Shown here piece by piece: positions 32,005 to 49,413 of a stretch of 64,000 nt of DNA; the stretch's first letter is position 1; the number at the start of each line of letters is the position of its first letter. This DNA is from Enorma burkinafasonensis (GTDB lineage Bacteria > Actinomycetota > Coriobacteriia > Coriobacteriales > Coriobacteriaceae), in the NCBI RefSeq assembly GCF_902150035.1, contig NZ_LR597509.1, positions 1 to 64,000 on the forward strand, written 5' to 3'. Below the pieces are notes generated by a model that had not been told where the DNA came from, searched no databases, and saw only the letters and a program-made list of their open reading frames with translations. Position numbers and translations under genes: made by a program.

Positions 32005-33186
32005 ATGGCGAACGGCGGCATCACGCCCTCCCCGGGCGGCTCGGGCGAGGGCAACCCCCTCGAGTTCATCTACACCATCGCCGCGCTCGCGGTCGTGTGC
32101 ATCGTGGTGGTCCTGGTTGAGCTCTGGAAGTACCCGTGGCAGGTCTCGGCGTTCTTCGGCGGCTGCTTCTTTCTGGGCTACGTCTGCATGCGGTTCTGGC
32201 CGCATACCGTGAAGACCGGCCAGGGCCGCGCGTTCATCTACACGGTGCTCGTGGGGACCCGCCTCGTGCGCGTGCTCCGCCTGGGCGGCGTCTACCAGTC
32301 GGCCACCAACCTGGGCTTCCACTGGGCGGAGCCGGTCTTCGCCTATCACCGCGCGTTCGACGCGGTCTTCGAGGCCGACCGCGTGCTCACCTCGATGTAC
32401 GGCCACGGCGTGCGCCGCGTGCTCGCGCTCGGCGGCGGCGGGTTCGCCTGGCCCAAGCACGCGCTGCTCGCCCGGCCCGACCTGGTCATGGGCGTGGTCG
32501 AGCTCGACCCCAAGGTCATCGAGTGCGCCGAGGCGTGGTTCTACGTGGAGCGCCTGAAGAAGCTCGCGAAGCGGCGCCTGCATATCATCGAGGGCGACGG
32601 CCGCGCGTACCTGGAGGAGCGTGCCGAGCTGATCGCGCAGGCGGAGCGCCTGCTCCCGGAGGGCGACGCGGCAGGGGAGGCGCGTGCCGAGGAGCCGTGC
32701 GTCGAGAGCGCCCCGGCCGAAAGCGCACCCACCGGCATCGCCAAGCGCGCGCTGCACCGGGGCCGGAGCGCCCGGCCCCGCCGCACGCGCCGTTTCGACG
32801 CCATCGTGAACGACACCTTCACCGGAGACGAGCCGGTCCGTGCGCTCGCCACGGTCGAGTGCGCCCGCGCGGTCAAGGACTGCCTCGTGCCCGGCGGCGT
32901 CTACGCCATGAACGTGGTCTCGCGCGACGACGGGCAGGACCTCACCTTCCTGCGCGACGAGGTCGCCACGCTCGCCGAGGTCTTCGCGCACGTGCACGTG
33001 CTTCCCGTGGACGAGACGGTCTGGGCCGGCGAGGACAACTACATCGTGCTCGCCACGGACGCGCAGACCGTGTTCGACGGCACCATCCCCTACGACGAGA
33101 ACTTCTTGGGCACGCCGATGCACGACGAGGAGCATTCCTGCTGTTCAGTGCCAAGACGTTGTTTACGCCCGGAAGATGACAAATAG
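32005..33186 (+). CDS. Membrane-anchored spermidine-synthase-like protein, 3' end altered by IS481
   Basis: 393 codons, ATG 32005 behind TAAGGAGGCGGC. Two hydrophobic segments (FIYTIAALAVVCIVVVL; FFGGCFFLGYVC) precede a Rossmann fold like polyamine aminopropyltransferases: RVLALGGGGFAWP, VELDPKVIE, EGDGRAYL and DAIVNDTF. A low-complexity basic insert lies near residues 215-265. It is translationally close to the Elp3 gene. The IS481 left end begins at 33141, so the last about 15 residues are encoded by IS DNA; the true terminus was probably a few residues different. Actual polyamine synthesis is unproven. Confidence 0.78.
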   Translation: MANGGITPSPGGSGEGNPLEFIYTIAALAVVCIVVVLVELWKYPWQVSAFFGGCFFLGYVCMRFWPHTVKTGQGRAFIYTVLVGTRLVRVLRLGGVYQSATNLGFHWAEPVFAYHRAFDAVFEADRVLTSMYGHGVRRVLALGGGGFAWPKHALLARPDLVMGVVELDPKVIECAEAWFYVERLKKLAKRRLHIIEGDGRAYLEERAELIAQAERLLPEGDAAGEARAEEPCVESAPAESAPTGIAKRALHRGRSARPRRTRRFDAIVNDTFTGDEPVRALATVECARAVKDCLVPGGVYAMNVVSRDDGQDLTFLRDEVATLAEVFAHVHVLPVDETVWAGEDNYIVLATDAQTVFDGTIPYDENFLGTPMHDEEHSCCSVPRRCLRPEDDK

Positions 33187-34216
33187 GGATGGCTCCCGCA
33201 TGCTGCGAGTTGTTCAGGCTTGCAGCGAAGGGGGCCATCCCATGTCCCAACATCCTAACGCAAGGCTCGCGCCCAGGGGGCGGGAGACGCTCGTCTCCCG
33301 CATAGAGTCCGGGGCCGGCGTGGCGGAGGCCGCCCGCCAGATGGGCGTGAGCGGGCAGACCGCCTCGAAGTGGCTCGCGCGGGCGAGGCGCGGGGAGCCG
33401 ATGTCGGACCGCCCGAGCAGGCCGCGCAGGCTCGCGAGGCGGACGCCGGCCGAGGCCGAGGGGCGCGTCCTCGAGGCCAGGCGCGCGATGCTGCTCGCCC
33501 CGCTCGCGCTCGCCGCCGTCACGGGCGTCCCCGCGCGCACCTGCGCCAGGATCGTGACGCGCGCAGGGCATGCCCCGCCTCGCCGACGTCGACCGCGTGA
33601 CCGGGGAGGCCCGCCGCCGCGGCCCGGTCACGCCCGTGCGCTACGAGCGGGAGCGCCCCGGGGAGCTCCTGCACGTCGACGTCAAGAAGGTCGCGCGCGT
33701 GCCCGCGGGCGGCGGGTGGAGGGCGCGCGGCGAGTCCGTCCTCGCGCACCCGGACTCCGGCGCAGGCTACGCCTGCCTGCACGTGGCCGTGGACGACTTC
33801 TCCCGCGTCGCCTACGCCGAGCTCCTCCCCGACGAGCGCAAGGGGACCACCTGCGCCTTCATGTCGCGCTGCCTGGCCTTCTTCTCCGGGCTCGGGGTCG
33901 AGGTCGAGCGCGTGATGACCGACAACGGGAGCTGCTACCGCAGCCGCGAGTTCAACGGGATGCTGGCCTCCGGGGGGATCCGCCACGTGTACACGAGGCC
34001 CTACAGCCCCTGGCAGAACGGGAAGGTCGAGCGGATGAACAGGACGCTGGCGCAGGAGTGGCAGTACGGGCGGGCTTGGGACAGCGAGGAGGGCAGGGCC
34101 GAGGCCCTGCCCTCCTTCATCGACCGCTACAATAGGGAGCGTCCTCACAGCGCGTGCGGGGGCATCCCGCCCATGTCGCGCATCCCGGATGTAAACAACC
34201 CATTGGCACACAACAG
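33141..34216 (+). mobile_element. IS481-family insertion sequence
   Basis: Imperfect terminal inverted repeats of about 35 bp: left 33141-33175 (CTGTT..GTGCCAA...GTTGTTTAC..CCGG) and right ending 34216. The element is about 1.08 kb and encodes one IS481 transposase, split by a frameshift. No target duplication is apparent; with coding-like sequence cut on both flanks this suggests a deletion next to the element. Confidence 0.75.
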
Positions 34217-34274
34217 ACTTTTTAGAGGCTTCGTTTCGTTGGCAAGGGTTGGAGAATACTTCTCCAGCTTCTGA
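33242..34274 (+). pseudogene. IS481 family transposase, frameshifted
   Basis: The N-terminal part (ATG 33242) has the helix-turn-helix GVAEAARQMGVSGQTASKWL. The reading frame moves by +1 near 33568, where GCAGGGC-ATGCCCCGC follows: the DDE domain then continues from MPRLADVDRVTGEARRRG with HVDVKK, VMTDNGSCY and SPWQNGKVERMNR (catalytic D, D, E). IS481 transposases are normally one ORF, so this copy is probably inactive. The frame runs past the IS end into flanking DNA. Confidence 0.8.
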
Positions 34275-34309
34275 GAGAGATATCATCAGACAATCTTGAT
34301 ATTGTTCTC

Positions 34310-35086
34310 ATGTATGGGGGCAGCACTGCTATGAGATTGGTTAGCCGTTCCGATCTGGATAAAGAGTTCGATCCCTCTATGCAGGAGCCGTCTCGCGAGA
34401 ACGAGAGGGAATATCAACGGCTTTTACAAGTGCTCGCTACGGTCGAAAAAGCAACTAGACGGGGGATATTTACCTCGCGACATACAATTGGTGTTGACGA
34501 TAAGTGCGTGCTTGAAGACAGGTTTTTCGGAGCGCATCCAGGCTATATGGGTACCGAGCAAAGCATCAAAAGTGTGCATAATGACAGTGCTCCCGATATA
34601 TTAATTGCGCGGGATAACTTCGTCCTAGTTATCGATCATTTTTGCTTTGATTGCACGAAATGGTCGAGGAAGGGATCGCCTCTCCAGGCGCTCTTATCAA
34701 ATCATAATGCTCAAGTTAAGTCTTTTTCTGGTAATGAGCTCATCGAATTATTGAGAGGTAGGGACGTCAGGTGCTCCGAAAAAGAGCATATTGACAACTT
34801 AAGACAAATGATAAAAACAAAGTTGGAGAAAGCGAACGGATATTTTGATGCCATTGACCATTATTTGATTGAAAAGGACAGGATGAAGCAGAAAGAACTG
34901 TGGCTGTTCGCTGAGGATGTACTTCCAATCGGAGATATTGACCTTGTAATAGAAGAAGCGCTTAGACAGTTCGACGTATATCCGAAGCTGGCTGGGATGA
35001 TTTATGTTCGGGATGTAGTGCCTTTTACAATTAGTGAGAATATTGACGACATCAGATTTATCTACAACTGCAACAACGCGCAATGA
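34310..35086 (+). CDS. Unknown protein, probably 5'-truncated by IS481
   Basis: 258 codons from ATG 34310, which has no ribosome site. Coding-like sequence in the same frame continues upstream to TAG near 34224, just outside the IS end, so the true N-terminus was probably removed. Low GC. Visible segments: DSAPDILIARDNFVLVIDHF and a later YPKLAGMIYVRDVVPF. The PD...D arrangement hints at a nuclease-like fold but no ExK is clear. I do not recognise the family. It is followed within 14 bases by the pentapeptide-repeat genes, so likely part of that operon. Confidence 0.55.
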   Translation: MYGGSTAMRLVSRSDLDKEFDPSMQEPSRENEREYQRLLQVLATVEKATRRGIFTSRHTIGVDDKCVLEDRFFGAHPGYMGTEQSIKSVHNDSAPDILIARDNFVLVIDHFCFDCTKWSRKGSPLQALLSNHNAQVKSFSGNELIELLRGRDVRCSEKEHIDNLRQMIKTKLEKANGYFDAIDHYLIEKDRMKQKELWLFAEDVLPIGDIDLVIEEALRQFDVYPKLAGMIYVRDVVPFTISENIDDIRFIYNCNNAQ

Positions 35087-35099
35087 GCGGGGGCAAGCG

Positions 35100-36032
35100 A
35101 TGGGACTGATTAATTATATAACAGGAAGAGATGACCAAGGTTTCGACCGAGACGGTTACGACAGAGCCGGATATGACCGAGACGGCTATGACAGATTTGG
35201 GTTCAACGAGGCGGGCTACGACAGGGATGGCTACGACAGATTCGGAATTGACAAGATGGGCTACGACAAGGAGGGCTTCAACAAATCTGGTTTCAACCGA
35301 GAGGGATACGATAAGGATGGATTTGATTCTGAGGGTCTAGATTCAGATGGCTATGACCGCTCTGGCTATAATCGCCGCGGCTACGATAGGGATGGGTACG
35401 ACCGAAGAGGATTTGACCGCTCTGGCTATGACCGCTCTGGCTATGACCGCTTTGGTTATGATTGCGATGGATTTAATCGCCGCGGTTATAACAGGCAGGG
35501 TTTCAACCGTAAGGGGATTGATATAGATGGTTTTAATTGCCTCGGATACAATTCCCGCGGCTTTGCCCGAAGCGGTATCCATAAGAACGGAACGCGGTTT
35601 GATGAAATGGGCTATGACATCGATGGATTTAACCAGAATGGTTATGACTCGGATGGCTATGACAGGGATGGTTGGAACTCGGAAGGTAGAGACCGTGCCG
35701 GACTGGATATGACCGGTAGGGACATAGAGGGTCGATATCAGGTTTGGAGATTCTCGTATGAGAGAGAGCGTTTTGATGATAATGGTAGTTGGCGAACTAG
35801 CTTTAAAAAAATGATCGAACACGAAGTTGTAATAACGTCTTCATATGAGAACGACGATGGATTGCTCCATGCGCTATTGGGCTTTGTGTTTGAACACGGG
35901 GTAAAAAAGCCGATCAAGGAACCGACAAAAAATCTTCTTCCAACACGCTCTCAACGTCAAGCTTTTTTACGGCTTTCCCCCAATATCCCGATAACTATCG
36001 TGCAAAGCATTTTGCAGGCGCGTTTAGCTTGA
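35100..36032 (+). CDS. Pentapeptide G-[YF]-[DN]-x-x repeat protein 1
   Basis: 310 residues from ATG 35100. Residues about 10-215 are some 40 near-perfect 5-residue repeats (RDGYDRAGYDRDGYDRFG), with D/N at the third place and charged or small residues after. A non-repeat C-domain of about 95 residues follows (YERERFDDNGSW, then ALLGFVFEHGVKKP). The repeat recalls MORN-like and acidic ion-binding arrays, but I cannot assign it to a named family. The stop overlaps the next TTG start (TTGA). Low GC and IS flanks indicate acquired DNA. Confidence 0.75.
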   Translation: MGLINYITGRDDQGFDRDGYDRAGYDRDGYDRFGFNEAGYDRDGYDRFGIDKMGYDKEGFNKSGFNREGYDKDGFDSEGLDSDGYDRSGYNRRGYDRDGYDRRGFDRSGYDRSGYDRFGYDCDGFNRRGYNRQGFNRKGIDIDGFNCLGYNSRGFARSGIHKNGTRFDEMGYDIDGFNQNGYDSDGYDRDGWNSEGRDRAGLDMTGRDIEGRYQVWRFSYERERFDDNGSWRTSFKKMIEHEVVITSSYENDDGLLHALLGFVFEHGVKKPIKEPTKNLLPTRSQRQAFLRLSPNIPITIVQSILQARLA

Positions 36033-36694
36033 GTTTTCTAAAACGGGTCGATGCCGATGGATACGATGATGCCGGCTTTGATATAGATGGATATGATCGA
36101 GATGGATATAACGCAGACGGTGTAAACCGAATAGGTTTATTGAGGCATGGGTTTAACTCTAATGGAATATGGTCAAACGGAACCCTCTATGATGACGAGG
36201 GGTATGATGTTGACGGTTACAATTCAGATGGATATAACCGTCAGGGCTTTAATCGTGAGGGCTTTGATAGGCGCGGGTTTAATAAACAAGGTCTTCACCG
36301 AAACGGTACTCGAATCGATGGAGAAGGATACGATGCCGTCGGCTTCGATCAGCAGGGATTTGACAGGGATGGCTATGATTCCGATGGAAAAAACCGTTGG
36401 GGCGTAACACGTACCCAGATTGAAGCGCAAAAAAAAGAGGATAGTGCCCAGCGGATGAAGGAGCTTGGTGCGGCATCAATAAAGGAAAAGAGTGGAGAGG
36501 GGATGCAGGTAGAACATAAAAAGAGGGTCGTGGGAAAAGTAACTCAGTTTCGTGTGGGAGACACCGTTTTTCATCGCAGGTATGGTAAAGGGATTGTCTT
36601 ACGATTGAAAGGAGAATCGGCTGAGGTGGAGTTTGTTAGATCTGACAGCAAGAAAGAAATAATGATTGATAGTCTAACTCCTGTAACTGATTGA
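36029..36694 (+). CDS. Pentapeptide repeat protein 2 with C-terminal Tudor-like domain
   Basis: 221 residues from TTG 36029, coupled by TTGA to the previous gene. Residues 8-130 repeat G-[YF]-[DN]-x-[DE/Q/R] as in gene 1 and share its GIHKNGTRFDE-type interruption (here LHRNGTRIDGEGYD). Residues about 170-221 (FRVGDTVFHRRYGKGIVLRL, then AEVEFV) match the Tudor-like domain found at the C-terminus of PcrA/UvrD and of other RNA-polymerase-linked proteins. A nucleic-acid or RNA-polymerase link is inference. Confidence 0.72.
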   Translation: MSFLKRVDADGYDDAGFDIDGYDRDGYNADGVNRIGLLRHGFNSNGIWSNGTLYDDEGYDVDGYNSDGYNRQGFNREGFDRRGFNKQGLHRNGTRIDGEGYDAVGFDQQGFDRDGYDSDGKNRWGVTRTQIEAQKKEDSAQRMKELGAASIKEKSGEGMQVEHKKRVVGKVTQFRVGDTVFHRRYGKGIVLRLKGESAEVEFVRSDSKKEIMIDSLTPVTD

Positions 36695-36843
36695 TTTCCA
36701 ATACCTCATCGATGTCCTAGGACGGTTGGCGCATAGCAAGATAGCGGGAAGCGTGTATGGAAGCCTTTCCCGTGCCCTTATTATCTCTTTGATTCTCATG
36801 GAGGCTTATAGGACAAAATGTGTGTCCCGATAGAACACATGTC

Positions 36844-38010
36844 CTAGTCCAGCCAGAAGGGGTACGGGTCCCTGTGGTGCAGCTCCTCCCAGACGACCCG
36901 GTCGCCCCACTCCGGCCCGCCGTCCTCGCGCTTGGGCGACGCCGAGTAGGTCCTGTAGAGGAAGTCGATGTCGTCGTCGGTGGGCATGGAGCGGAGGACC
37001 TCCCTCGCCGGCCCCGGGCTCTCGGTGTGCATGTAGCACCACCAGAAGACCGCCTTGACCCTGCGCATGAGCGACAGCCCGCGATGGCTGCGCAGGACTT
37101 CCCTGAGCTGGGCGTTGACCCCTCCCTCGATCGCGTTGTCGGTGCGCGGCAGCGGCCCCTCCGCCGTGAGGGCGGGGTCCAGGCAGGTGAACAGCGTGCC
37201 GGCGCTCACGAGCCTCGAGAGCGACGAGCGCGCCTTCCTGAGCCTCTCGTGCGTGAACTGGCGCCTCCCGTCGACCACGCTCACGTCCTCAAGGAAGTCG
37301 GCCCAGAACGAGCACCACTGCAGGTAGCGCTCGACCCACCGGTCCGCCTGGCGGAGCGTCTCGAGGTGCATGAGCTCGATGGAGAGGGCGCAGGGCTCCC
37401 TGCCCGCCTGGAGCCTCGGGTGCGAGGTGGTGTAGCGCCTCACCTGCGAGAACGCGTGGAAGAGGCACCTCTGTACGCGAGTCCCCGGCCAGGCGCGGCG
37501 CCTCGCCCTCTCGAAGCCCGTCCCGCCGTCGCACACCACCACCTCCGGGGCCGGGATCGGCGCCATGAGCGCCTCCCAGGCCCTCGATGTCTCCGACTCG
37601 GCCATGTACTACGGGACCACGTGCTCCCCGTCGTAGGCTATCAGCACGACGAGGCTCCGGGCGAGCCAGATCCCGTCGACGAAGAGCACCCTGTGGACCT
37701 CGCCCGTGGGCTCCGGCATGGGCCAGATCGGCCAGAAGCCCGCGGCGAGCCTCCTGAACGTGCGCCCCTGCCCGGGCATGTCCGCCTGCGTCGCCTTCGA
37801 GAGCAGCCATGCCAGGAACTCGTCGAGCCTCGCCGCCGTGTCGTCGTAGGAGACCGTGGTCGAGGCGCCGCACGCCCCGCACCTCCACCTCTGCGCGCCC
37901 GCGCTCGTCTTCCCGTTCCTCTTCATCTCCGCCCCGCAGGAGGGGCACCTGACCGCCTTCATCCCCAGCTCCTCGGTAATCGGGGTTTTAACGGCCTGAT
38001 TTTCAGTCAT
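36844..38010 (-). pseudogene. IS256/IS1249-like transposase with amber stop
   Basis: From ATG 38010: a zinc ribbon (VRCPSCGAEM...WRCGACGAS), a helical domain, then FVDGIWLARSLVVLIAYDGEHVV. TAG at 37608-37606 interrupts the frame where homologues have tryptophan, then YMAESETSRAW continues. The second half carries VVCDGGTGFERAR, the FHAFSQVRR region and late EGGVNAQLREVLRSHRG, typical of the mutator-like DDE transposases. One point change (TGG to TAG) would explain it. The element is probably immobile unless complemented. Confidence 0.8.
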
Positions 38011-38092
38011 CTGCCTGCGGGACGGGTGCGAATCCGGACACACTATCTGTCCGAGTGGTTAAATTCCCCCCGCAGATTTAAGCGCGTGAAAA

Positions 38093-38120
38093 AGGGGCAT
38101 CGACCTGCGTCGATGCCCCT
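38093..38120 (-). terminator. Terminator hairpin inside the IS right end
   Basis: AGGGGCATCGAC pairs with GTCGATGCCCCT. On the minus strand it is followed by TTTTTCACG, so it would stop transcription entering the element from the right. Confidence 0.6.
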
Positions 38121-38318
38121 GATTCGGACACACATTTTGTCCTATAAGCCGGCGACGGCGGTGCCGGGCGCCACGCGCCCCTCCAGCTCGGCGTCGACTG
38201 CTCGTCCGTGCGGTGCTGTTACCGTCAATGTATTTTTCGCCAATCGCGGAAATCTATCGGCGCCGATCGCGCTAACGCATTCTCGCCGGTTCCGCTAACG
38301 CGCTTTCGCCGTTTTCGG

Positions 38319-38610
38319 CTACTCGGCGTCCCTCCTCTCGCGCGGCAGGTCCTTGAGCCGGTAGGACCTGCTCGCGGTCTTGATGACGCGGCAGCGGTGG
38401 CACACGCGGCCCGCGATCGCGCTCGCGGCACCGCCGTCGCCGAACACCTTTCCCCACCCGCCGATGTCGACGTCGGCGGTGATGGCCGTCGAGCGCCGCC
38501 CGTGGCGCGTCGAGATGAGCTGGAAGAGCGGATCGGTCCCTCTCTCACCCATGCCGAGGTACCCCAGCTCGTCGATGACGAGCAGCTTCGAGCACAGTCC
38601 ACGCCTCTGC
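38319..38610 (-). pseudogene. istB C-terminal remnant of an older IS21-family element
   Basis: About 95 residues survive, beginning at SKLLVIDELGYLGM (Walker B) and running through RGTDPLFQLISTRHGRRSTA and WGKVFGDGG to a stop. The Walker A half is missing; IS21 insertion at 38625 cuts the 5' side. The intervening 38151-38318 shows no gene. Confidence 0.7.
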
Positions 38611-38779
38611 TGCGGTGAGCGGTGTGTTTGATAGCCTCGAAGTTGCGGGCTTGAGCGTCGGAAAGTTTCGGGCCTGAGCACGAAAATCTTTCGGCTTTGA
38701 GCATGGGCACGCCGACCATCCGCAATCGGCCCAACAATGTCGTTGCTTCCGTTTACGACGTGAGGAGGGCCAGAGGGGA

Positions 38780-40300
38780 ATGATCGGCGTGGACAAGATA
38801 GAGGATATACGCAAGAGCGCCAGGGGCGGCGAGCCAATCGCCTCGATTGCGAGGGCGGTCGGCGCGTCGGAGCCGACGGTCAGGAAGTACGCCAGGATGG
38901 AGGACCTGTCGCCCGAGCCCCCGAGGCGGCGCGAGCCCGAGAGCGAGGTCCTCGCGCCATACGAGGAGACGATCGACTCCTGGCTCGACGACGACTGCAG
39001 GAACTGGCGCAAGCAGCGCCACACGGCGACGAGGGTCTACGTGAGGCTCCGCGACGAGGAGGGCTACACGGGCAGCTACTCCACCGTGCGGCGCTACGTC
39101 AAGCGCCGCCGCGAGGAGATGGCCCGCGAGCGCGACCGCAGGGACGCCGAGGGGTTCCTGACGCTGAGATGGCTGCCCGGCGAGGTCCAGGTCGACTTCG
39201 GCGAGGCGGACTTCAGGGTCCGCGGCGTTGTCACCAGGGGCGAGTACCTGACGGTCACCTTCCCGCACCCCGACGTCGGGCTCACCCAGGTCTTCTGGGG
39301 CGAGACGGCCGAGTGCGTCTGCCAGGGGCTCCGCAACGTCTTCGAGTTCGTCGGCGGCGTGCCCAGGAGGGCGGTCTTCGACAACGCCGCCGAGGTCGGC
39401 AGGCGCGTCGGCGGGGAGGCGAGGACGTCCGAGCTCTTCCGCCGCTTCGCGGCTCACCACGGGCTCGACCACACCTTCACCAACCCCTACCCGGGCAACG
39501 AGAAGGGCAACGTCGAGAACAAGGTCGGCTGCCACAGGAGGAACCTCTTCGTCCCCGTCCCGTCGTTCCACGACGTCCGCGCGCTCGACCGCAGGCTGCT
39601 CGAGGACTGCCTCGACCTGAGTGAGGGCAAGCGCCACTGAAGGCTCGGCACGCCCGAGTCCGAGCTGTTCGGAGGGGACAGGGAGGCGCTCTCGCCGCTG
39701 CCGCCGGCGGCGTTCTCGTGCGTGAGGTGGGAGGCCAGGAGGTGCAACAAGCAGGGCACGATCACGGTCGGCGGGGTGCACCGCTACTCGGCCGGCCCCG
39801 CCTACGCGCGCCGCGAGGTCGCCGTCGCGCTTGGCGCCTTCGACGTCGCGGTCTGCGACTGCGAGACCGGGGAGGTCGTTGCCGTCTACGAGCGCGAGCG
39901 GGGCGGGGCCCCGACCGACAGCTCGGGCCCGACGCTGCAGCTGAGGCTCCTGTGCATGAGGCCCGCCGGGTGGAGGGACTCGAGCGCGAGGGCGTCGCTG
40001 CCCGCCGGGCTCGTCGCCTTCCTCGACTCCGAGGCGCCCGCCGACCTCGCCGCCGACCTCAGGGTGCTGCGCGACGAGAGCGCGGGGGGGGGGTGGGGCG
40101 CCGCCGTGGAGGGCATGTCGCGCTCGCTCGCGGCGACCGGAGGCGTCGACCGCGCCTCGGTCGCCCTCTCGGCCGCCAGGGCCGCCTCGGGGGACGAGCG
40201 CGTCGAGTACGACGAGGAGGTCGACCTGGGCGTCTACGACAGGGCGCTGAGGCTGCTCGGGGGAGGTGGGCGGCGTGCCGCGGACGAGCTCGGAGCGTGA
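38780..40300 (+). pseudogene. istA: IS21 transposase IstA with opal stop
   Basis: ATG 38780 with GAGGGGA upstream. A helix-turn-helix (SIARAVGASEPTVRKYARM) precedes the DDE core: VDFGEADF, AVFDNAAEVGRR and the NEKGNVENKVGCHRR Glu region. TGA at 39638-39640 interrupts after LSEGKRH; the same frame continues (RLGTPESELFGG) for another 220 codons into the normal C-terminal domain, ending within the istB start. Homologues have an aromatic residue (Trp or Tyr) at this place, so a nonsense change is likely. Transposition from this copy is doubtful. Confidence 0.75.
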
Positions 40301-41039
40301 GGCCGCCCAGGCCGCCTTCCGCGGCGCCGCGAGGGCCCTCTTCATGTCCGGTGACACGATCGGCGCCTTCCTCGCCTCCGCGACGCCGGGCCAGGTGGCC
40401 GCGTGCACGGCGATGCTCGAGTCCGAGATCGCCCACCGCGACAGGGCGAAGCGGGCGCGCCTGCTCAGGCAGGCGAGGTTCCCCGTTCCCAAGTCGGCCG
40501 AGGGTTTCGACTGGTCCAACGTCGCGTTCCCCGACGGCTGGGGCCGCGACGAGATGCTCTCGCTGGCGTTCGTGCGCGACGCGGAGGACCTGGTCTTCTA
40601 CGGCCAGACGGGGCGCGGCAAGACCCACATGGCCACCGCCCTCGGGATCGCCGCGACCTCGGCGGGCTACCCCGTGAGGTTCTGGCAGACCGCGCAGCTG
40701 GTGCTGCGGCTCGGCAAGGCCAAGCGGGAGGGGACGCTCGACCGGCTGCTCGCCGACGTGGCCAAGGCGAGGCTCCTGGTCCTGGACGAGTTCGGCTACG
40801 TGCCCTTCGACGTGGACGGGGCGAGGCTCCTGGACCAGGTAATATCGGACAGCTACGAGAGGAGGAGCGTGATATTCACCACCAACGTCGAGTTCAGCAG
40901 GTGGGGCACGGTCTTCGCCGACGACAAGCTCGCGGCGGCCATCGTCGACCGCGTGGTGCACCACGGCAGGCTCGTGGAGTTCGGCGGACCCAGCCACAGG
41001 CTCGAGGAGTCCCTCATGCTGGGAAAGTCGGGAAGGTAG
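40266..41039 (+). CDS. istB: IS21 helper ATPase IstB
   Basis: 257 residues from GTG 40266, overlapping the end of istA by 35 bases. Walker A GQTGRGKTH near residue 113, Walker B LLVLDEFGYV near residue 170, then sensor segment FTTNVEFSRWGTVF and DRVVHHGRLVEF. IstB is the AAA+ partner that directs IstA to the target. Intact by sequence. Confidence 0.88.
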   Translation: MGGVPRTSSEREAAQAAFRGAARALFMSGDTIGAFLASATPGQVAACTAMLESEIAHRDRAKRARLLRQARFPVPKSAEGFDWSNVAFPDGWGRDEMLSLAFVRDAEDLVFYGQTGRGKTHMATALGIAATSAGYPVRFWQTAQLVLRLGKAKREGTLDRLLADVAKARLLVLDEFGYVPFDVDGARLLDQVISDSYERRSVIFTTNVEFSRWGTVFADDKLAAAIVDRVVHHGRLVEFGGPSHRLEESLMLGKSGR

Positions 41040-41358
41040 AGACGGCGGCGCGCCCGTGACGAAACCCGAAAAAGTTGCGTGCCGAAACCCGGAAGAAATC
41101 TGTGCTCAAAACCGAAAGTCAGGCTTGACTAAACACAAAGGCGTTCCGCGAGGGCGGGCGGGCGGTGTACGATACGATCCTGGGCCGCAGGGAGCGGCTC
41201 GGGCCGGCCGCCTAGGCCTGTCCAAGAATTCGTCCGCATCCCCATATTGGAACAAAGAAAAACCGAATGTAGATATTGAGAGAGCAGGAAGAGTGGTTAG
41301 GCTCAACCAATCAATATAATATCTACATCGAATCCAATTCCCAGTTAAGGGGAAGGCA

Positions 41359-43728
41359 ATGAAAGACATTTCTACAATCGCATCCCTAGAGCAACTTCGC
41401 GAAATCAGCTTCTCTGATCTCTACTATTCCTTAGAAAACAAAGAGAACAAGGCTGACGTTGTAAAACGCGTGATTGCCGCAATCGATTCCGGATTCATTC
41501 CGACGGTTCTACAGCAGCGGAGGCTCGTGATACTCCTTTCAATGATTCGCGATGCCGTTGAAGACAAAAGAATGCAATACCAAATAAAGCTTCAGAAGAA
41601 AGAAGAGGAGCTAGAAAAATACAAACAACTAGATGAGCTTTGCTCATCAGTTGGTCGAGTTAGCGGGCTTTACAGCATGGTGAAGCGCGCGGAAGAGCTT
41701 AAAGAGATTCAGAAGTCTATTGGTAACGGGAGAACAACAGCTGGCGGTCTTGGTATAAAAATCAAGTATTTGAATGACGATGAGCTATTTGATCAAATCA
41801 GAGATGATTTCATTAGCGCATCGGTCGAGCATATTGACGCCCTTGTGGCTGACGATGAACGATACTCGGCGTTCATGGCAAATCTCAACGATACAATCCA
41901 GCAGCAGTTGGTGATGAGCGGGAACAAGGTACTTAAGGGGCTCTATATGCTGCCTCTTCTCGGGGACGATCAAGAGCTAATCATCTTTTTCGTAAGTGCT
42001 TTTCATGCCACTTTTTCTAATACTGATGCATACACGGGGCTCCTGTATGCGTCGGAGTACTTCGAGCATGATGGATCATATTTAGGCGCAGCTTTTTTAC
42101 AATCCTCAGAAGAGGAGAAAACGCAAATTGTACGGGACGCCAGAAACGCACGGGATTATGAATATGCACTGAGGCTATTGAGTGAAGAGAGATATGACGA
42201 AGCTGCGAAAGCATTTGATGCTCTTGGGACATATAAAAACTCGAAGTCTATGTCGGATAAAGCTTTAGCAGCTCGAGACGAAGCCGCTAAAGCGAAAGTC
42301 TATCAACGGGCGATAGGCCTTCTGTCCGAAGAGGAGTTCGATAAAGCCGCAGAATTGTTCGAAGAGTTGGGCGATTACTCGGACTCACTTAGGATGCTCG
42401 AGAAAACTGTCAATTTGCGTGACATTAAGCAAAACGACTCACTTTATTCAGAGGCGGAAAGAGATCTTCAGGAATCAAGATACTTAGACGCGGAAAACAT
42501 TTTTCTCAGCCTAGGCGAATGGCGTGATGCACCAAGTAAGGCTCTCGCTGCGCGCGAGGCATTCAGCGAACAGCAATATAAGATGGCGTCCGAACTAAGA
42601 AAGCAAGGAGAGTACGACAAGGCCATTGAGCTATATTCCCAGATTATTGACTATTCAGATTCTAAGGAGCAACTAGCTCGAGTTAAGTTCGAAAAGGTTG
42701 AAGATGAGACATGGAGAGAACGAGAAGAGGAACAGCAGCTCAAACGCGTATACGATAGAGGAAAAAGCTACTTCGAGAAAGACCAATTTGAAAAAGCCGC
42801 CCGCCTATTCTGTGACCTTGGCGACTATGAAGATGCGCCACAGCTGATGAGGGCTGCACAGTGTTTGGCGATACAAGAAAAAGCTTATTCTGAGGCTTTG
42901 ACTCTCCAGTCCCAAGGAGATTATCAAGCTGCTGCAGCTGCTTTTTCTGCTCTAAAGGGGGAGGATGGAGCATGGTATCGGGATTCTCGTCAACGAGAGA
43001 GGGAATGCCAAGAAGCTTATGAGAAAGCGCTGGCGGCGTCTTACGAAGAGGCGAATCTCCTGATGGCTTCTGGAAAATACAGAAATGCGGAATTGCGGTA
43101 TAAAAAGTTATCCGGCTATCGGCAGTCTGATAAGAAGGCGGAACAGGCATCTCTATTGTTGGCTGCGACAAAAACGCTGCTTGCAGGGCAATACACAATA
43201 GTTCGGCAGATTATAAACAATCCAGCTATTGCAGCTCTAAAAGCGACGGACGAAATCGGCAGGGATATTCAGGAAATTGAAACTCTGCTTAAGCAAGTGT
43301 CAGACAAGCAAGAGGAATTGAATAACGTACATAAAGAGTTAACGAATGTACAGAGAAAGCTAGCTTGCAATGCGGGGAAGCAGCTCGATCTTGAAGAGGG
43401 GGCCGTGGCGATAGTTCCTTCTCAGAAGGAATATGAGACGACTTGTCAAGCAATTAAGCTTATCCGACTGGAGTTAGAGAAGCTAGGCCTGTTTGAGTTC
43501 AAGAAAAGGCGAGCGCTTGAGAGTGAATTACACCTCAAGATGGAAAAGCGAAACAGGTGCATCGTTGCAATCCCCGTCGAGAAAAAAGAATTGTTGGAAT
43601 CCCTACGTCGAGAGAGCGACCTTCTTAATGAGCAGAAGTTTCGCGCCGCGAGAAGCGAGAGTTTGCTAGAGGAACAAGTGAGGTCATGTGAAATGAAACT
43701 GTTGGAAATAAAGGGGAAGTACCAATAG
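41359..43728 (+). CDS. Large TPR-like repeat and coiled-coil protein, unknown
   Basis: 789 residues from ATG 41359 (AAGGGGAAGG upstream), low GC, isolated between IS21 and an istB remnant. The N-terminal 270 residues hold helices (SFSDLYYSLENKENKADVV) and a fold with TFSNTDAYTGLLYASEYFEHD. Residues about 275-600 are about eight TPR/Sel1-like helix pairs with the motif LL.E.RYDEAAKAFDALG.YK.S. The last 170 residues are a coiled coil (KQEELNNVHKELTNVQRK). The repeats suggest a protein-binding scaffold. No catalytic motif is visible. Confidence 0.72.
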   Translation: MKDISTIASLEQLREISFSDLYYSLENKENKADVVKRVIAAIDSGFIPTVLQQRRLVILLSMIRDAVEDKRMQYQIKLQKKEEELEKYKQLDELCSSVGRVSGLYSMVKRAEELKEIQKSIGNGRTTAGGLGIKIKYLNDDELFDQIRDDFISASVEHIDALVADDERYSAFMANLNDTIQQQLVMSGNKVLKGLYMLPLLGDDQELIIFFVSAFHATFSNTDAYTGLLYASEYFEHDGSYLGAAFLQSSEEEKTQIVRDARNARDYEYALRLLSEERYDEAAKAFDALGTYKNSKSMSDKALAARDEAAKAKVYQRAIGLLSEEEFDKAAELFEELGDYSDSLRMLEKTVNLRDIKQNDSLYSEAERDLQESRYLDAENIFLSLGEWRDAPSKALAAREAFSEQQYKMASELRKQGEYDKAIELYSQIIDYSDSKEQLARVKFEKVEDETWREREEEQQLKRVYDRGKSYFEKDQFEKAARLFCDLGDYEDAPQLMRAAQCLAIQEKAYSEALTLQSQGDYQAAAAAFSALKGEDGAWYRDSRQRERECQEAYEKALAASYEEANLLMASGKYRNAELRYKKLSGYRQSDKKAEQASLLLAATKTLLAGQYTIVRQIINNPAIAALKATDEIGRDIQEIETLLKQVSDKQEELNNVHKELTNVQRKLACNAGKQLDLEEGAVAIVPSQKEYETTCQAIKLIRLELEKLGLFEFKKRRALESELHLKMEKRNRCIVAIPVEKKELLESLRRESDLLNEQKFRAARSESLLEEQVRSCEMKLLEIKGKYQ

Positions 43729-44029
43729 GGATTCGATAGGCGATCAGCTTTGCGTCGCGTCTGCACCCAAGAGCGGTGAACAATCTCGCGCTCGGGCTCG
43801 TCCAGATGGATTCCCCAAGAAACAAATTACCCTGTCTTTGGCACTTCTTTGTCTTGATAACTCCAAAAATGACAGGCTAGGTCGAGTGTTCCCTTTCGTT
43901 GGCAATACGCGAGCTCTTGCTTGGCTTCCGCATATTTCGCACAGCCGTGAGCATATCAGGCGAGTTCTACTTTGGATAACAGTTTAAGCTTGGTATGGGG
44001 CGGGGCAGACTGCGGTTACTTTGTGCCTA

Positions 44030-44330
44030 ACAGGGTCGCGAGCGGGGGCTCCCGCCGCTACCTGGACGCGATGCTGCTGGAGGGGCGGCAGTACCGGAGG
44101 GCGGGCCTATGGGGCTGTCGGAAAGTGCGCAAGAATCTTGACGGCACCAGTACGCCGCCTTCCAGGTGTTCGTGCTCGACGAGTGGCTGCTTGACCGCTC
44201 GGACGAACTGTTCCGGGCCTTCCTGCTGGAGCTCATGGAGAACAGTTGCGGGTCGGCCTCGACCGTGTCCTTCACGCAGTTCCGGCAGGAGGATTGGCAC
44301 TATCGAGCTGTAGGGCTTCCCGCAATCTGA
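44030..44330 (+). pseudogene. istB-like remnant
   Basis: A degraded frame contains YQVFVLDEWLLDRSDELF (Walker B region) and SCGSASTVSFTQFRQEDWHY, which match IS21 IstB; the Walker A part and C-terminus are missing and frames are broken. Nothing else is recognisable in 43729-44529. Confidence 0.55.
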
Positions 44331-44529
44331 GACCGTTTCACCGTGTTCCTGTGCCCCAATGACTTGGATATCAAAAGGCAATGTCGAGCAAATCCGTGTG
44401 CGTTTATCGCGTGATTGATGACGCTCCTGTGGCGTATCGAGCGTTCTACGGACGGCAGGATTACGCCCGGCTTGGATGTAGGCTGCAAGTTGCAGGACTG
44501 ATATGCCTACATACGGCAAGGCGGAAGGG

Positions 44530-45132
44530 CTAGATTTCGGTTACCTTTGTGGGGCTCGAAAACGAGGCGAATTCATGCTGGCGCACTGGGCTCCAATCGT
44601 TTGATTTCTTATAGCTACAAGAACTAGGGACGTATGCAGTTACAAGTGAGGAGCAGCCTCGGAATGCGCTTGCCCCAAGCTGCTGCAGTGAACGAGGAAA
44701 ATCGATTTTCTGTAGCGAGACGCAGCCTTCGAACGCGCCAATCTCGATAGTAACTACGTTGTGCGACATGTCGATAGTGCATAGCGAAGTGCAGCCTCGG
44801 AATGAGTTGGTCTCGATAATCGTCACGCTGTCAGGGATAGTGACCGTTGAGATAAACTTGTTTCCCTGGAATGCTTCAGAAGAAATCGCTGTCACATGTG
44901 CCGGGACGATAACATGCGGCTTTGTGCCCTTGTATGCCGTGAGCGTGGTCCCAACGATAATGAAGTCGGATAGATCGGCGTCGCCTGTGGCCATCTCGGG
45001 CATCGCGGCGAACGCATAAGCTGCGTCGCGCAGAAACTTGCTGCCGCAGTAGGGGCAGAAGAACTCGGTTTCCTCCGCCGGAATCTCAATGCTCTTGGCG
45101 CATGCGGGGCATTTTGCTGAAACGAATCCCAT
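44530..45132 (-). CDS. Zinc-ribbon and BspA-type leucine-rich repeat protein
   Basis: 200 residues from ATG 45132. N-terminal zinc ribbon (CPACAKS...FFCPYCGS). Then four BspA-type (LRR_5) repeats of about 22 residues: AISSEAFQGNKFISTVTIPD, IIETNSFRGCTSLCTID, IEIGAFEGCVSLQKIDFP, LGASAFRGCSSLVTAYVP. These fold as a solenoid for protein binding. The protein lacks a signal sequence, so it is cytoplasmic, unlike surface BspA. It is the last gene of a four-gene minus-strand cluster with gaps of about 84-95 bases. Confidence 0.8.
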   Translation of the reverse strand: MGFVSAKCPACAKSIEIPAEETEFFCPYCGSKFLRDAAYAFAAMPEMATGDADLSDFIIVGTTLTAYKGTKPHVIVPAHVTAISSEAFQGNKFISTVTIPDSVTIIETNSFRGCTSLCTIDMSHNVVTIEIGAFEGCVSLQKIDFPRSLQQLGASAFRGCSSLVTAYVPSSCSYKKSNDWSPVRQHEFASFSSPTKVTEI

Positions 45133-45216
45133 GATCGGCTTCTTTTCGTTAGTTAAGAGACTAGATAGCCGGCGTGGCCGCGATTCCCGTCGCGGCCACG
45201 CCGTAAACGTGGGCGG

Positions 45217-45414
45217 TTACTTGCGGTTCGAAGAGCCGCCTTTCATGTAGAAGTTGCCCGAGGTGCTGCTGCGCGTTTTAGTGAACCCGCCGAAGCTCTG
45301 TCCCACGTGCTGGTGGGCACGAGCCGCCGATACGTAGGTCCCGGTGCGGTGGTTCGTAAAGCCGCCGCCTGAGTAGCCGCTCCTGCCGCTTGAATAATGT
45401 CCGCGATACGCCAT
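45217..45414 (-). CDS. Small Gly/Ser/His-rich protein, twin A
   Basis: 65 residues from ATG 45414, behind AAAAGGAGACCATC. Basic, Gly/Ser-rich, with the block GGFTNHRTGTYVSAARAHQH, then GQSFGGF, SSTSGNFYMK. The same block is in the gene just upstream with different connecting residues, so selection acts on the protein. No family is recognised. No helix for membrane insertion. Confidence 0.7.
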   Translation of the reverse strand: MAYRGHYSSGRSGYSGGGFTNHRTGTYVSAARAHQHVGQSFGGFTKTRSSTSGNFYMKGGSSNRK

Positions 45415-45509
45415 GATGGTCTCCTTTTCTTCCGGGCATCCTTTTGATGCCGTGCCGTTGATTGGATTGTTGAGCGGATTTGTCATCTGTTATCTTCTGA
45501 GCTTTTCAA

Positions 45510-45701
45510 TCACCCCTTCTTCATGTAGTAGTTCCCGGTGGTGGAGCTCTTGGCCTTCGAGTAGCCGCCGAAGCTTTGGCCGGTGTGCTGGTGTGCGCGT
45601 ACCGCCGATACGTACCCGCCTGTCCGATGATTCGTGAACCCACCGAATCGGGCTCCTCGACCGTAAGAGCTTCCGCCGCGATAACTAGTCACCCTGCTCA
45701 T
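45510..45701 (-). CDS. Small Gly/Ser/His-rich protein, twin B
   Basis: 63 residues from ATG 45701, overlapping the end of the RHH gene by 17 bases. Paralogue of twin A: GGFTNHRTGGYVSAVRAHQH, GQSFGGY, SSTTGNYYMK, preceded by an Arg/Gly/Ser/Tyr-rich head. Roughly 60% identity with twin A over the shared part. Unknown function; coupling to the RHH gene suggests joint action. Confidence 0.7.
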   Translation of the reverse strand: MSRVTSYRGGSSYGRGARFGGFTNHRTGGYVSAVRAHQHTGQSFGGYSKAKSSTTGNYYMKKG

Positions 45702-46581
45702 CCCCCTTGTTCTTATCGAGGAGTGCGGGCGCGACGCCCGTGTTGTACTTGACGTCGAGATTGCATTTGGAAAGCATGTCCTGCGCAGCCGAGGCGGCGG
45801 AAAGGGCGATTGCGAGGGCGCTCCCGCCGACCTGTCCCGTGTACCGCAGGACGATGCTGTCGGGGTTTTCGCTGTAGGTCTCGACGGCGTATCCGAAGAG
45901 CTGATCCACGAGGAGAACGCTGTTCTCTCGGGTGATGGTGAAACCCTCGTCCTCCGTCGTATCGAGATCGAAGACGGTACCGAAAAGCTCGAGGATGTTG
46001 ACGTCGAGGTTTTCAGCTATCTCGAAACACCCGTCGAGAATCTTCCCGTCAATCGACTCGAGAGTTTCCCTATAGGCGGTGAAGGGCTTTACATCTTTGT
46101 CACCGGCGAACCGCTTCTCGATGCCGGAGACGCTTTCCAAGAGCATGGAGACCTTCACGTGAGTCGCGTTGAGCGACTTGTCGAACGTCACGTCGCCAAG
46201 CATGTCGTTTGCGAGCTCGATAACCGTGGGGCTGGTTCCGTCGATTTCGGCGACGAGCATTTTCGCCTCGATTTCACCGCTAATTCCAGTGATGAGCTTG
46301 CCGATTTCGGTATAGAGGTTGATGGCCGGTTGGATGATGCCGGAGTCGACGATTCGCTTCGTCTTGTACGCTCGGTACTCAGTCGCCCAGAACTCGGGAT
46401 CGGCTTTCTGGGTGAACGGGATCTCTCGGTCCTGCGCGAGCTGGCGCAGGCACATTCCGATGTAGGCGCTCATGTTGAGGCCCATGTTTGCTAGCACCGA
46501 CTCGGCCGACTCCTTCACCACGGGGTCGATCTTGAGGTTGACGTTCTGGATGGTGACCTGCGTGTCCTTGGTTGCCTTCAT
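45685..46581 (-). CDS. RelB/DinJ-like ribbon-helix-helix protein with large C-terminal domain
   Basis: 298 residues from ATG 46581 (GAAAGGAAACGGAA upstream). Residues 10-65 match RelB/DinJ antitoxins: VNLKIDPVVKESAESVL, LNMSAYIGMCLRQLAQDREIPF, then ADPEFW. Typical RelB proteins are 80-100 residues; here about 230 more follow, with mixed helix/strand and no motif I recognise (ILDGCFEIAENLDVNILELF; VDQLFGYAVETYSENPD). The RHH part probably binds DNA and controls the operon. It heads a cluster with two tiny paralogues and an LRR protein. Confidence 0.75.
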   Translation of the reverse strand: MKATKDTQVTIQNVNLKIDPVVKESAESVLANMGLNMSAYIGMCLRQLAQDREIPFTQKADPEFWATEYRAYKTKRIVDSGIIQPAINLYTEIGKLITGISGEIEAKMLVAEIDGTSPTVIELANDMLGDVTFDKSLNATHVKVSMLLESVSGIEKRFAGDKDVKPFTAYRETLESIDGKILDGCFEIAENLDVNILELFGTVFDLDTTEDEGFTITRENSVLLVDQLFGYAVETYSENPDSIVLRYTGQVGGSALAIALSAASAAQDMLSKCNLDVKYNTGVAPALLDKNKGDEQGD

Positions 46582-46634
46582 TTCCGTTTCCTTTCTCTTT
46601 GCGGGTTCCGCTTGTCGGCTCCCTTCGTTGATTC

Positions 46635-46665
46635 ATAGTAAAACACCGAGTAAAGAAGAAGTCAA
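46635..46665 (-). promoter_or_regulatory. Candidate promoter of the RHH operon
   Basis: On the minus strand TTGACT (46665-46660) is followed 17 bases later by TTTACT (46642-46637), with TACTAT two bases further. The surroundings are AT-rich and the start codon lies about 55 bases downstream. Confidence 0.45.
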
Positions 46666-47225
46666 GAAATAACTAAGAAATTTTCTTTGAAACAGATTTA
46701 ATTCTACTAACTCAATCAATCAGAGGGTGCTGCCTGCGCCTTTTCGAGCTATGGGGTGGGTAGAGATTGCATTCTTGCGAAGGGGAGCGCGAGGTGCAGG
46801 AACGTAAACTATAGCTTGCGTTCCGGAGTTGTCGGCACAGTCGACGGGATACATAAGACTTGTCTCATGTATCCTGTTTTCTAAGATAGGTCTTAGGAAA
46901 AAGGACCCTCAACGGGAGATTCGATTTCTTGGGTGAGGGGCCCATGGCCAGCTTGCAGGGTTTCTCGATGTCGGCAATTGGGAACATTCTCATCTGCTTC
47001 ACAGGGTATTCGAAGGATTGGGTCAGGATGCTATGACGGGGTTGCTATTCTTGGTCATGAGCCCACTCCTCGCGAGGAACTACGGTTGCGTCTTGTCATG
47101 TAAGATGCCCGCCGCGTTGATTGCTCATAACGTGGCAGGCATCTGCGCGCTTATCGCCATTCTGCGTTGCGTTCGGTATGCCTAAATCCTGACGGCAATT
47201 CAGAACGCTGAAGCCTGCTTGCGAG
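46666..47225. other. 560-base gap with palindromes and possible decayed ORF
   Basis: No firm gene. 46848-46873 is a near-perfect inverted repeat (GATACATAAGAC/GTCTCATGTATC, two-base loop) and 46881-46896 is CTAAGA-TAGG-TCTTAG. A coupled pair of short plus-strand frames, 46944-47036 and 47033-47185, encodes hydrophobic peptides (LLFLVMSPLLARNYG) and may be a decayed membrane protein. Confidence 0.35.
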
Positions 47226-47587
47226 CTACGCAAACTCCAGTGTGGACAGCGCGAACTCGAGGTCATCGCTCTACATGCCGGCATCGCTCGCCCGGTAGGA
47301 GATCGTCACGCGGACGAGCTGGTCGTTGCGGGGGAAGGCGTACACACGTTCACGCGGGTTGTCTCGCTATCTTCTCCGGCGCGGGAGTAGCTCATGTGCA
47401 GGCACGTGGTCCCGTTGAGCCGGAGGAACTCGAGCGGATACCAGTCGATAATCTCGATACCGCCATTCGCAAGTTGCGTGCGGGTCTCCCACTTGAAGTA
47501 GACGTCGAGCTCTTCGATGTCGTCCTCGGTGAAGTTGCCGGGATTCGCATGGTGCCGATGCCGGGGAGTGGCCTGGCGATTTGCCAA
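47226..47587 (-). pseudogene. Decayed unknown gene with frameshift and amber
   Basis: The minus-strand frame gives coherent protein (NFTEDDIEELDVYFKWE, IEIIDWYPLEFLRLNGTT, LHMSYSRAGEDSETTRVNV). At about 47345 a two-base (TG) excess shifts frame; the other frame then reads YAFPRNDQLVRVTISYRASD, hits TAG, and continues SDDLEFALSTLEFA to a stop at 47226. The family resembles small fatty-acid- or stress-type proteins I cannot name. The 5' end is unclear. Confidence 0.5.
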
Positions 47588-47611
47588 TCATTGCCGGTGG
47601 GAACAGCTGGG

Positions 47612-47640
47612 TGTCGTATACTGTAGACGCGTATACAACA
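47612..47640. promoter_or_regulatory. Operator of the plus-strand RHH/PIN toxin-antitoxin module
   Basis: TGTCGTATAC and GTATACAACA form an inverted repeat (9 of 10) separated by nine bases and end 12 bases before the antitoxin start. TATACT at 47617-47622 inside it is a good -10 box. RHH antitoxins bind such sites to repress their own operon. Confidence 0.65.
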
Positions 47641-47651
47641 AGGGGGTTGCC

Positions 47652-47942
47652 ATGGCGACGGCGGTGATTTCCGGCAGGGTCGACGAGCGGGTCAAGGCCC
47701 GGGCAGAGGTGTTCATCCATGCAGCCGGACTTTCGGCGGGCGATGTCATCCGCATGGTGTGGGAGCGTATCGCCCAGACCGGGGAGATTCCCGACGCGGC
47801 GGCCGCGTTGGAGGGAGCTTCGGATGCCGATGACCCGCTGGCGCGGCTCGGCGAACTCCGCGCGGCGTTCGGGTCTTCAGAGGAGCTCGTCAGCCTCACC
47901 GATGCCCAGATGCGAGAGATGATCGCGGGTCGCTATGCGTAA
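47652..47942 (+). CDS. RelB/DinJ-family antitoxin
   Basis: 96 residues from ATG 47652 (AAGGGGG upstream). The ribbon-helix-helix is ISGRVDERVKARAEVFIHAAGLSAGDVIRMVWERIAQ (47667-47777), followed by GEIP, as in RelB/DinJ. The C-terminal acidic half would bind the toxin. It overlaps the PIN toxin by eight bases, the usual TA coupling. Confidence 0.82.
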   Translation: MATAVISGRVDERVKARAEVFIHAAGLSAGDVIRMVWERIAQTGEIPDAAAALEGASDADDPLARLGELRAAFGSSEELVSLTDAQMREMIAGRYA

Positions 47943-48366
47943 CTTCAACGCGCGCCGCCTGCTGTTCGACACGAACGTGCTGCTTGATGCCCTCATCGAG
48001 GGGAGGCCGGAATCGGCTGAGGCGTGGGAGGTCCTCAAACGCTGCAATGGTGGCGGCGAGATGGGCCTCGTTACATCTGGATCACTCAAGGACGCGTACT
48101 ACGTGCTCGGCCGCGGCGGACGGGAGGCCGCGGCCCGCGAGGCCGTCGGCCTGCTCATGGGGCTACTCGTCATAGCGCCTGTTGGGGCGGAGGAGTGCGA
48201 GCTCTCCATGCGGTCGGGCGAGCCGGATTTCGAAGACGGTCTCGTGCGGGCGTGCGCTGAGCTGAACGATGTCGACTTCATCCTCACTCGCGACGAGCGG
48301 GCTTTCCGGACATCGCGCGTCCGTGCGCTTACGTGCGGGGAGTATCTGGAGCTGTTTCCACAGTAG
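47935..48366 (+). CDS. PIN domain toxin
   Basis: 143 residues. PIN ribonuclease acidic residues are visible: LLFDTNVLLDAL (first Asp), FEDGLVRACAE (Asp/Glu) and VDFILTRDERAF (late Asp). Paired with an RHH antitoxin rather than the RelE-fold toxin that usually accompanies RelB. PIN toxins cleave RNA; the target is unknown. Confidence 0.85.
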   Translation: MRNFNARRLLFDTNVLLDALIEGRPESAEAWEVLKRCNGGGEMGLVTSGSLKDAYYVLGRGGREAAAREAVGLLMGLLVIAPVGAEECELSMRSGEPDFEDGLVRACAELNDVDFILTRDERAFRTSRVRALTCGEYLELFPQ

Positions 48367-48443
48367 GCACTGGATGGAGACCGCGTATGAGGGTGCGGCA
48401 ATATGCGTTTCGGCACGTCGGACCGTGAGCCAACGGGTTCACG

Positions 48444-48968
48444 CTACATCGCGTCAAGTTCATCCAGCAGCTGGAGCCCCTCTTCTGCCGTGATGCAAGA
48501 CTCTCCAATATGCCGCGCAAGTTTGGTGTCATGCGTCATGAGCAAGTGGCCGTCTGCCGCATCGAGTGCCGCGAGAACGAGATCGTCCTCGAAATCGTCG
48601 TGCATGCGCTTGTAGGTGAATGCGCCCAGCACCTCCGCCGCTCCCGTTGGAGCGACTAAGGCCTTTTCGAGCACATTCCGAACGCAGCCCCATGCTGTTT
48701 CTCTCGCTGCCGCGGCGATATCCGGCGTGATTTCCCTCCCAGCGCGCCTCGCGTCGAGCTTCATGAGGTTGGCGATCTGATACGCGAGGTCCTTGAGGGA
48801 GAGCGGTGATACGTACAGCACGATATCCTCACGTTCGAACGCTCTCGCAACGAAAGTGCTGACAGCGCGGTGGTGGTCGCCGCGCGCGAGATAATAGTCG
48901 AGCAGGATATTGGTATCGACCATGATCTTGATAGGTGAGATGCGCTCGTTGGGGTGAATGCCCGTCAT
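48444..48968 (-). CDS. PIN domain toxin
   Basis: 174 residues from ATG 48968, overlapping its antitoxin by ATGA. PIN signatures: IMVDTNILLDYY near residue 16, DDFEDDLVLAALDAADG and HLLMTHDTKL. The protein differs from the plus-strand PIN toxin in its middle region, so the two modules are not a recent duplication. Likely an RNase toxin. Confidence 0.85.
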   Translation of the reverse strand: MTGIHPNERISPIKIMVDTNILLDYYLARGDHHRAVSTFVARAFEREDIVLYVSPLSLKDLAYQIANLMKLDARRAGREITPDIAAAARETAWGCVRNVLEKALVAPTGAAEVLGAFTYKRMHDDFEDDLVLAALDAADGHLLMTHDTKLARHIGESCITAEEGLQLLDELDAM

Positions 48969-49315
48969 GCGAGCCCCCACTTCTCCAACTGCTCGGCGGC
49001 GGCAAGCTCGCGGAGCTCGTTGTAGTCGACGATGCCTTCCGTGGGCTCCTCGATTCCGATCCGCTCGTAGAACGATGACACGATTCTGGTGCCTTCCGCC
49101 GCCTTCCCAGACTCACCATCGATGTCTGATGCGGCGGTGGTTTTCGCGCCCTGCAGAATGTGCGTGAGTGCTGCGGGGAGGGTTCCCTGTACAGTTGCAA
49201 ACTCCCACAACGCGCGCACGACCTGCGACGGTGTGTATCCGAGCTCGGCGATGACGGCGTTGCCCGATGCCTTGAGCGCGGAATCCAAGCGGATGTTCAT
49301 CTGAGCGGCAGGCAT
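48965..49315 (-). CDS. RelB/DinJ-family antitoxin
   Basis: 116 residues from ATG 49315, with AAGGAG upstream. RHH segment: MNIRLDSALKASGNAVIAEL, GYTPSQVVRALWEFATVQGTLP. The C-terminal half (IDGESGKAAEGTRIVSSFYERIG) would contact the PIN toxin. It forms a module convergent with the one at 47652-48366. Confidence 0.82.
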   Translation of the reverse strand: MPAAQMNIRLDSALKASGNAVIAELGYTPSQVVRALWEFATVQGTLPAALTHILQGAKTTAASDIDGESGKAAEGTRIVSSFYERIGIEEPTEGIVDYNELRELAAAEQLEKWGLA

Positions 49316-49325
49316 ATCGACTCCT

Positions 49326-49355
49326 TGCTATACGTATCTGAGATTTAGTATAGCA
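49326..49355. promoter_or_regulatory. Operator of the minus-strand RHH/PIN module
   Basis: TGCTATAC and GTATAGCA are a perfect 8-bp inverted repeat with a 14-base spacer, ending 11 bases upstream of the antitoxin start. The minus-strand copy contains TATACT, a -10 match, as in the other module's operator. Confidence 0.65.
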
Positions 49356-49413
49356 CCTTAAATCGAGATACAAGGTGCCTGGGACTTGAGGAGGTGGTTT
49401 TGCTTCATCGTGG

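Follow-up and report, generated by a model that had tools for sequence, protein, structure and literature searches.

A previously unnamed gene unit of gut Coriobacteria that pairs a long RHH protein with a small basic protein

The window, a stretch of 64,000 nucleotides, corresponds to contig C32 in a genome of 2.23 Mb (G000 in our comparisons). Its relatives among named records are all Coriobacteriia: an uncultured Collinsella, Adlercreutzia sp. ZJ141 and two MAGs. Four ORFs, which we term RHH-long, s1, s2 and the LRR gene, are all carried by the minus strand; a reading of the sequence alone had placed them here, and their location agrees with it. The features of the locus are as follows.

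45685..46581, minus strand: RHH-long, 298 aa; a RelB/DinJ-type RHH DNA-binding domain (residues ~1-62) followed by an acidic domain of ~236 aa, predicted to be all-helical
45510..45701, minus strand: s1, 63 aa, basic and Gly/Ser/Tyr-rich; overlaps RHH-long by 17 nt
45217..45414, minus strand: s2, 65 aa; paralogous to s1 and preceded by a ribosome-binding site of its own, AAGGAGA
44530..45132, minus strand: LRR gene, 200 aa; CxxC..CxxC N-terminus and BspA-type LRR; a neighbour, probably outside the module
46635..46665, minus strand: candidate RHH-long promoter/operator, TTGACT-N19-TACTAT, with two TTTACT repeats 12 bp apart
45171..45202, minus strand: hairpin between s2 and the LRR gene, 13-bp perfect and GC-rich; a possible transcription end, with no T tract
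44315..44467, plus strand: remnant of a ParE-family toxin gene, with an internal stop
33187..49413, no strand assigned: variable island, bounded by conserved genes at 32005-33186 and a DEAD-box helicase at 49414-~51840

RHH-long had been described as a RelB/DinJ-like domain with some 230 extra residues, and this description holds. Residues ~12-62 match both RelB (PF04221; 30.5 bits against a cut-off of 22.4) and RelB_DinJ (TIGR02384; 49.2 bits against a cut-off of 45.65), and ~236 amino acids lie beyond. This C-domain, which carries a charge of -20 in G000 and is poorly conserved between G000 and G217, matched no library family. It is all-helical in an AlphaFold (AF2) model of moderate confidence (pLDDT 73.5, pTM 0.69, from four sequences only). 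The top fold matches were 14-3-3 proteins, but at E 0.17 and TM 0.18-0.19 a 14-3-3-like fold was not accepted. A HEPN domain was likewise rejected: the four C-domains share no Rx4-6H motif, and no HEPN profile of Pfam matched. Pfam detected no PIN domain in RHH-long, s1 or s2, and neither RelE nor PIN as a partner of RHH-long. Matches to plasmid records were restricted to the RHH domain, RHH-long had no match in IMG/VR, and its homologue in genome G038 had none among phages. A first scan of genome contigs with RHH-long alone as query was also without a match. The region 5' of the gene is almost identical in G000 and G217, and the two TTTACT repeats lie beside the promoter-like sequence in two genomes. 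The candidate at 46635-46665, which a consensus promoter scan did not call, may serve as the RHH-long operator.

The two small ORFs are, on comparative evidence, genuine genes: they have homologues across Coriobacteriales, the third codon position is the most variable between these homologues, with many identical residues encoded by different codons, and a Shine-Dalgarno-like sequence lies ahead of s1, s2 and most of their relatives. The proposed paralogy of s1 and s2 is confirmed, since 40 of the 59 aligned codons specify the same residue; 22 of these 40 identical residues are encoded by a different codon. Strong matches to the family occur in about 16 of the 399 Coriobacteriales genomes, across genera and families. 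A first three-row profile had returned 13 genomes at E 0.001, one of which (G225) was apparently spurious. Matches beyond Coriobacteriales are weak (E 0.0009 to 0.003), with internal stops in two of three, and no match was found in IMG/VR, phage or plasmid records. Neither s1 nor s2 matches Pfam, NCBIfam, PHROGs or PADLOC, or has a significant PDB-profile match; the family that they define is missing from the first four of these.

These proteins are strongly basic (s1: pI 10.8, charge +9.8). They have a Gly/Ser/Tyr-rich N-terminus and a motif of the type GGFTN.RTG.YVS..RAHQH.GQSFGGYTK..S.TGN.YM, the two halves of which look alike by eye. The structure model is weak (pLDDT 66.5), with a hairpin at residues 47-62, a short helix and bridge residues only in the first half; at this low confidence it had no match in a fold search. 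Profile and fold searches together detected no toxin fold. A WW domain was suggested in one of 12 members (E 0.0099, 16.3 bits against a cut-off of 26.9) and is not significant; nor is a resemblance to SH3, Tudor or Cren7. Twin small genes are seen in G000 only. A recent tandem duplication is unsupported, as s2 is nearer to the small protein of G229, a member of another genus (81% identity), than to s1 (68%), in a poorly resolved tree.

Full-length RHH-long is present in four of the 399 genomes (G000, G217, G038 and G353). In G000, G217 and G353, the start of a small gene lies no more than about 20 nt from the stop of RHH-long: G000 shows an overlap, already noted by the sequence-only reading, of 17 nt, G353 shows an overlap of the same length, and G217 has a 17-nt gap, its small gene lying on a 3.3 kb contig separate from that of the helicase. 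The genome-level co-occurrence of RHH-long with the 16 small-gene genomes (three of four) has P = 2e-4 with adjacency uncounted, a value weakened by the shared family of G000 and G217; G353 belongs to another family. Because of this proximity in three of four genomes and this probability, a two-gene unit of RHH-long and a small gene is supported by the sequence comparison. Furthermore, in all three pairs the charge is about +9 to +10 on the small protein and -14 to -24 on the C-domain of RHH-long, beyond the mean +/- 1 sd of the window genes. As acidic proteins are common, we take this charge complementarity as weak evidence. Literature searches returned no description of an RHH-long/small unit. 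We conclude that this gene unit of gut Coriobacteria is real and previously unnamed.

The initial proposal was larger: a four-gene operon in which a zinc-ribbon LRR protein would follow the small genes, perhaps as a toxin-antitoxin-derived or stress system. Shared strand and close spacing agree with a single stress or surface operon of all four genes, and the small gene of G215 has a BspA/DUF285 gene downstream. The LRR half of the protein description is sound (LRR_5, BspA-type, PF13306, E 2e-23), but the zinc ribbon stands only as a visible CxxC..CxxC pattern, every zinc-ribbon Pfam match falling below cut-off. The recurrence check likewise gave a divided answer: the RHH-long/small pair recurs in three of four genomes, but the four genes do not recur as one conserved operon. 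In G217 and G353 the LRR gene is without a counterpart; other genomes give general LRR matches only. In addition, the 13-bp GC hairpin separates it from s2; the 81-nt fold reaches -37.1 kcal/mol (z -4.5), a terminator scan did not call it, and no Rfam element matched at the locus. As the gene lies behind this strong hairpin and is missing from the other two RHH-long/small genomes, we place it outside the unit, probably as a bystander, and regard a four-gene operon as very improbable.

The cassette lies in an island whose contents differ among genomes. The predicted presence of two genuine RHH/PIN modules nearby is correct (PF04221 and PF13470). The flanking helicase (49414-51840) is of the DEAD-box/Cas3-like-C type, and several Coriobacteriaceae have an insertion hotspot on its downstream side. 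About 45 bp replace the island in G107, and a single RHH/PIN pair occupies the hotspot in G071. The island of G143 shares a TPR gene (87%) and contains a DUF6273 protein and toxin-antitoxin genes; RHH-long, the small gene and the LRR gene are all missing from it. In G229 the island is a different one and has a small gene next to the helicase, and G217, whose helicase contig was read in part, also has different cargo. At 35034-36694 of the window, two ORFs that overlap each other consist of G[YF][DN]xx pentapeptides in tandem, with a 15-nt period in part; G143 encodes a single 861-aa protein with such repeats and DUF6273 domains. The ParE remnant at 44315-44467 is 55% identical over 51 aa, with an in-frame stop, to a ParE-like toxin of G174 that also lies near a small gene.

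Such surroundings raise the question of whether the cassette is an inactive or purely selfish passenger, assembled by chance from toxin-antitoxin leftovers. A degenerate ParE remnant does adjoin it, its GC content is low relative to the flanks, and no such cassette turned up in the part downstream that was read for G143, G071 and G107. These observations are set against the third-position bias and purifying pattern of the small genes, intact reading frames and the presence of the gene pair in two families, and we consider a passenger improbable.

RHH-long is absent from the vicinity of most small genes, whose neighbours are varied. In G174, the small gene lies beside TIR-beta-propeller, FHA-like and kinase-RyR genes; in G158, beside a PD-T4-6-like kinase; in G251, beside a TIR gene; and in G215 and G124, beside ORFs judged ankyrin-like by eye. 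The G229 gene neighbours a coiled-coil protein, an ORF that appears PIN-like by eye (no Pfam match) and a kinase below the Pfam cut-off. In G097, the small gene is beside E1-E2 (PADLOC E 1.6e-92), JAB (6e-38) and radical-SAM genes; the segment L055:7983-11444 reads, in order, small gene, short E2-like ORF (by eye), a radical-SAM gene that looks RlmN-like, E1-E2 and JAB, a possible defence operon. Two similar ORFs near the small genes of G174 and G361 (L053:6052-6576 and L107:6975-7409) share an ..AYAxAxGEYxxx.. pattern and have no Pfam match. In two larger proteins of G345 (L109:7030-7368 and L059:4646-5731), the small-protein motif is flanked by a zinc ribbon on one side and a topoisomerase-type zinc finger on the other.

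The small protein is coupled elsewhere to TIR, kinase, ankyrin and E1-E2/JAB genes, which makes a role as an exchangeable effector or adaptor in conflict systems probable; its link with defence is one of guilt by association. One alternative to a toxin is a small adaptor or nucleic-acid-binding accessory serving many immune and signalling systems, with RHH-long as a sensing transcriptional regulator only, setting the time of its synthesis. The adjacency of small genes to at least five kinds of signalling or defence genes, the basic Gly/Ser/Tyr-rich N-terminus and the G345 fusions are consistent with such a role. It would require action in trans, as the RHH-long unit contains no other effector gene in G000, G217 (on a contig of 3.3 kb) or G353. 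Since other partners are the rule among small genes, this explanation is almost as likely as our preferred one. We are more doubtful of a broader proposal, that the small proteins form a new exchangeable effector or adaptor family in the immune systems of Coriobacteriales. Here an RHH repressor with a dedicated binding domain would restrain them; in other genomes, kinases, TIR or genes of ubiquitin-like conjugation would do so.

Our preferred reading, to which we give a probability of about 0.38, is that RHH-long and the small gene form a compact, autoregulated module, either toxin-antitoxin-like or accessory to defence. Through its RHH domain, RHH-long would bind to an operator within the promoter of its own gene and repress the unit. 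Its acidic helical C-domain would bind the basic small protein and keep it inactive, as opposite charge and gene overlap suggest. Upon loss of binding or repression, for example during infection or stress, the small protein would be freed or overmade and might act on nucleic acid or another cell component. Such a pair would follow type II toxin-antitoxin or defence-accessory logic, except that its effector would not be of the RelE kind and its antitoxin would be enlarged. RHH/PIN and ParE-type genes in the same hotspot count in favor of the module. Counting against it is G038, where RHH-long has an NYN-domain gene upstream and no small gene; that so few small genes have RHH-long nearby would be odd for an addictive toxin. 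The failure to detect a toxin fold and the single occurrence of twin small genes also speak against it. If the interpretation is true, a family of proteins of ~60 residues, invisible to current annotation libraries, ties regulators of the antitoxin type to defence genes of the kinase, TIR and ubiquitin-like kinds in common gut bacteria, and this family offers a short test case for small-protein action.

Several known systems invite comparison. Small proteins elsewhere adjoin domains similar to the TIR, FHA and PIN effectors of regulated conflict systems (Kaur et al. 2020, PMC7159879), but the unit of the window cassette itself has no TIR, FHA or PIN; in a text search, that article mentioned neither Coriobacteria nor ribbon-helix-helix. 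RHH-HEPN fusions of the paREP1 family (Makarova 2009, PMC2701414) also join an RHH to a helical domain, but the RHH-long C-domains have neither the conserved Rx4-6H motif nor a HEPN profile match. The two RHH-PIN (VapBC-like) pairs flanking the locus share its island and place an RHH regulator gene directly before its partner, but s1, s2 and the RHH-long C-domain are without PIN. Unlike the second genes of RelBE and DinJ-YafQ modules, s1 and s2 are not RelE/YafQ-like (BECR) and match no known toxin fold. RHH-long is about three times longer than the antitoxin of those modules, and in place of the short flexible toxin-binding tail of RelB/DinJ it has the ~236-aa predicted helical C-domain. The resemblance to RelBE and DinJ-YafQ lies in the RelB/DinJ-type RHH domain of the first gene, the small overlapping second gene and the hotspot setting; the antitoxin-first order, with genes overlapping or abutting, is the one seen in the RHH-long/small pairs.
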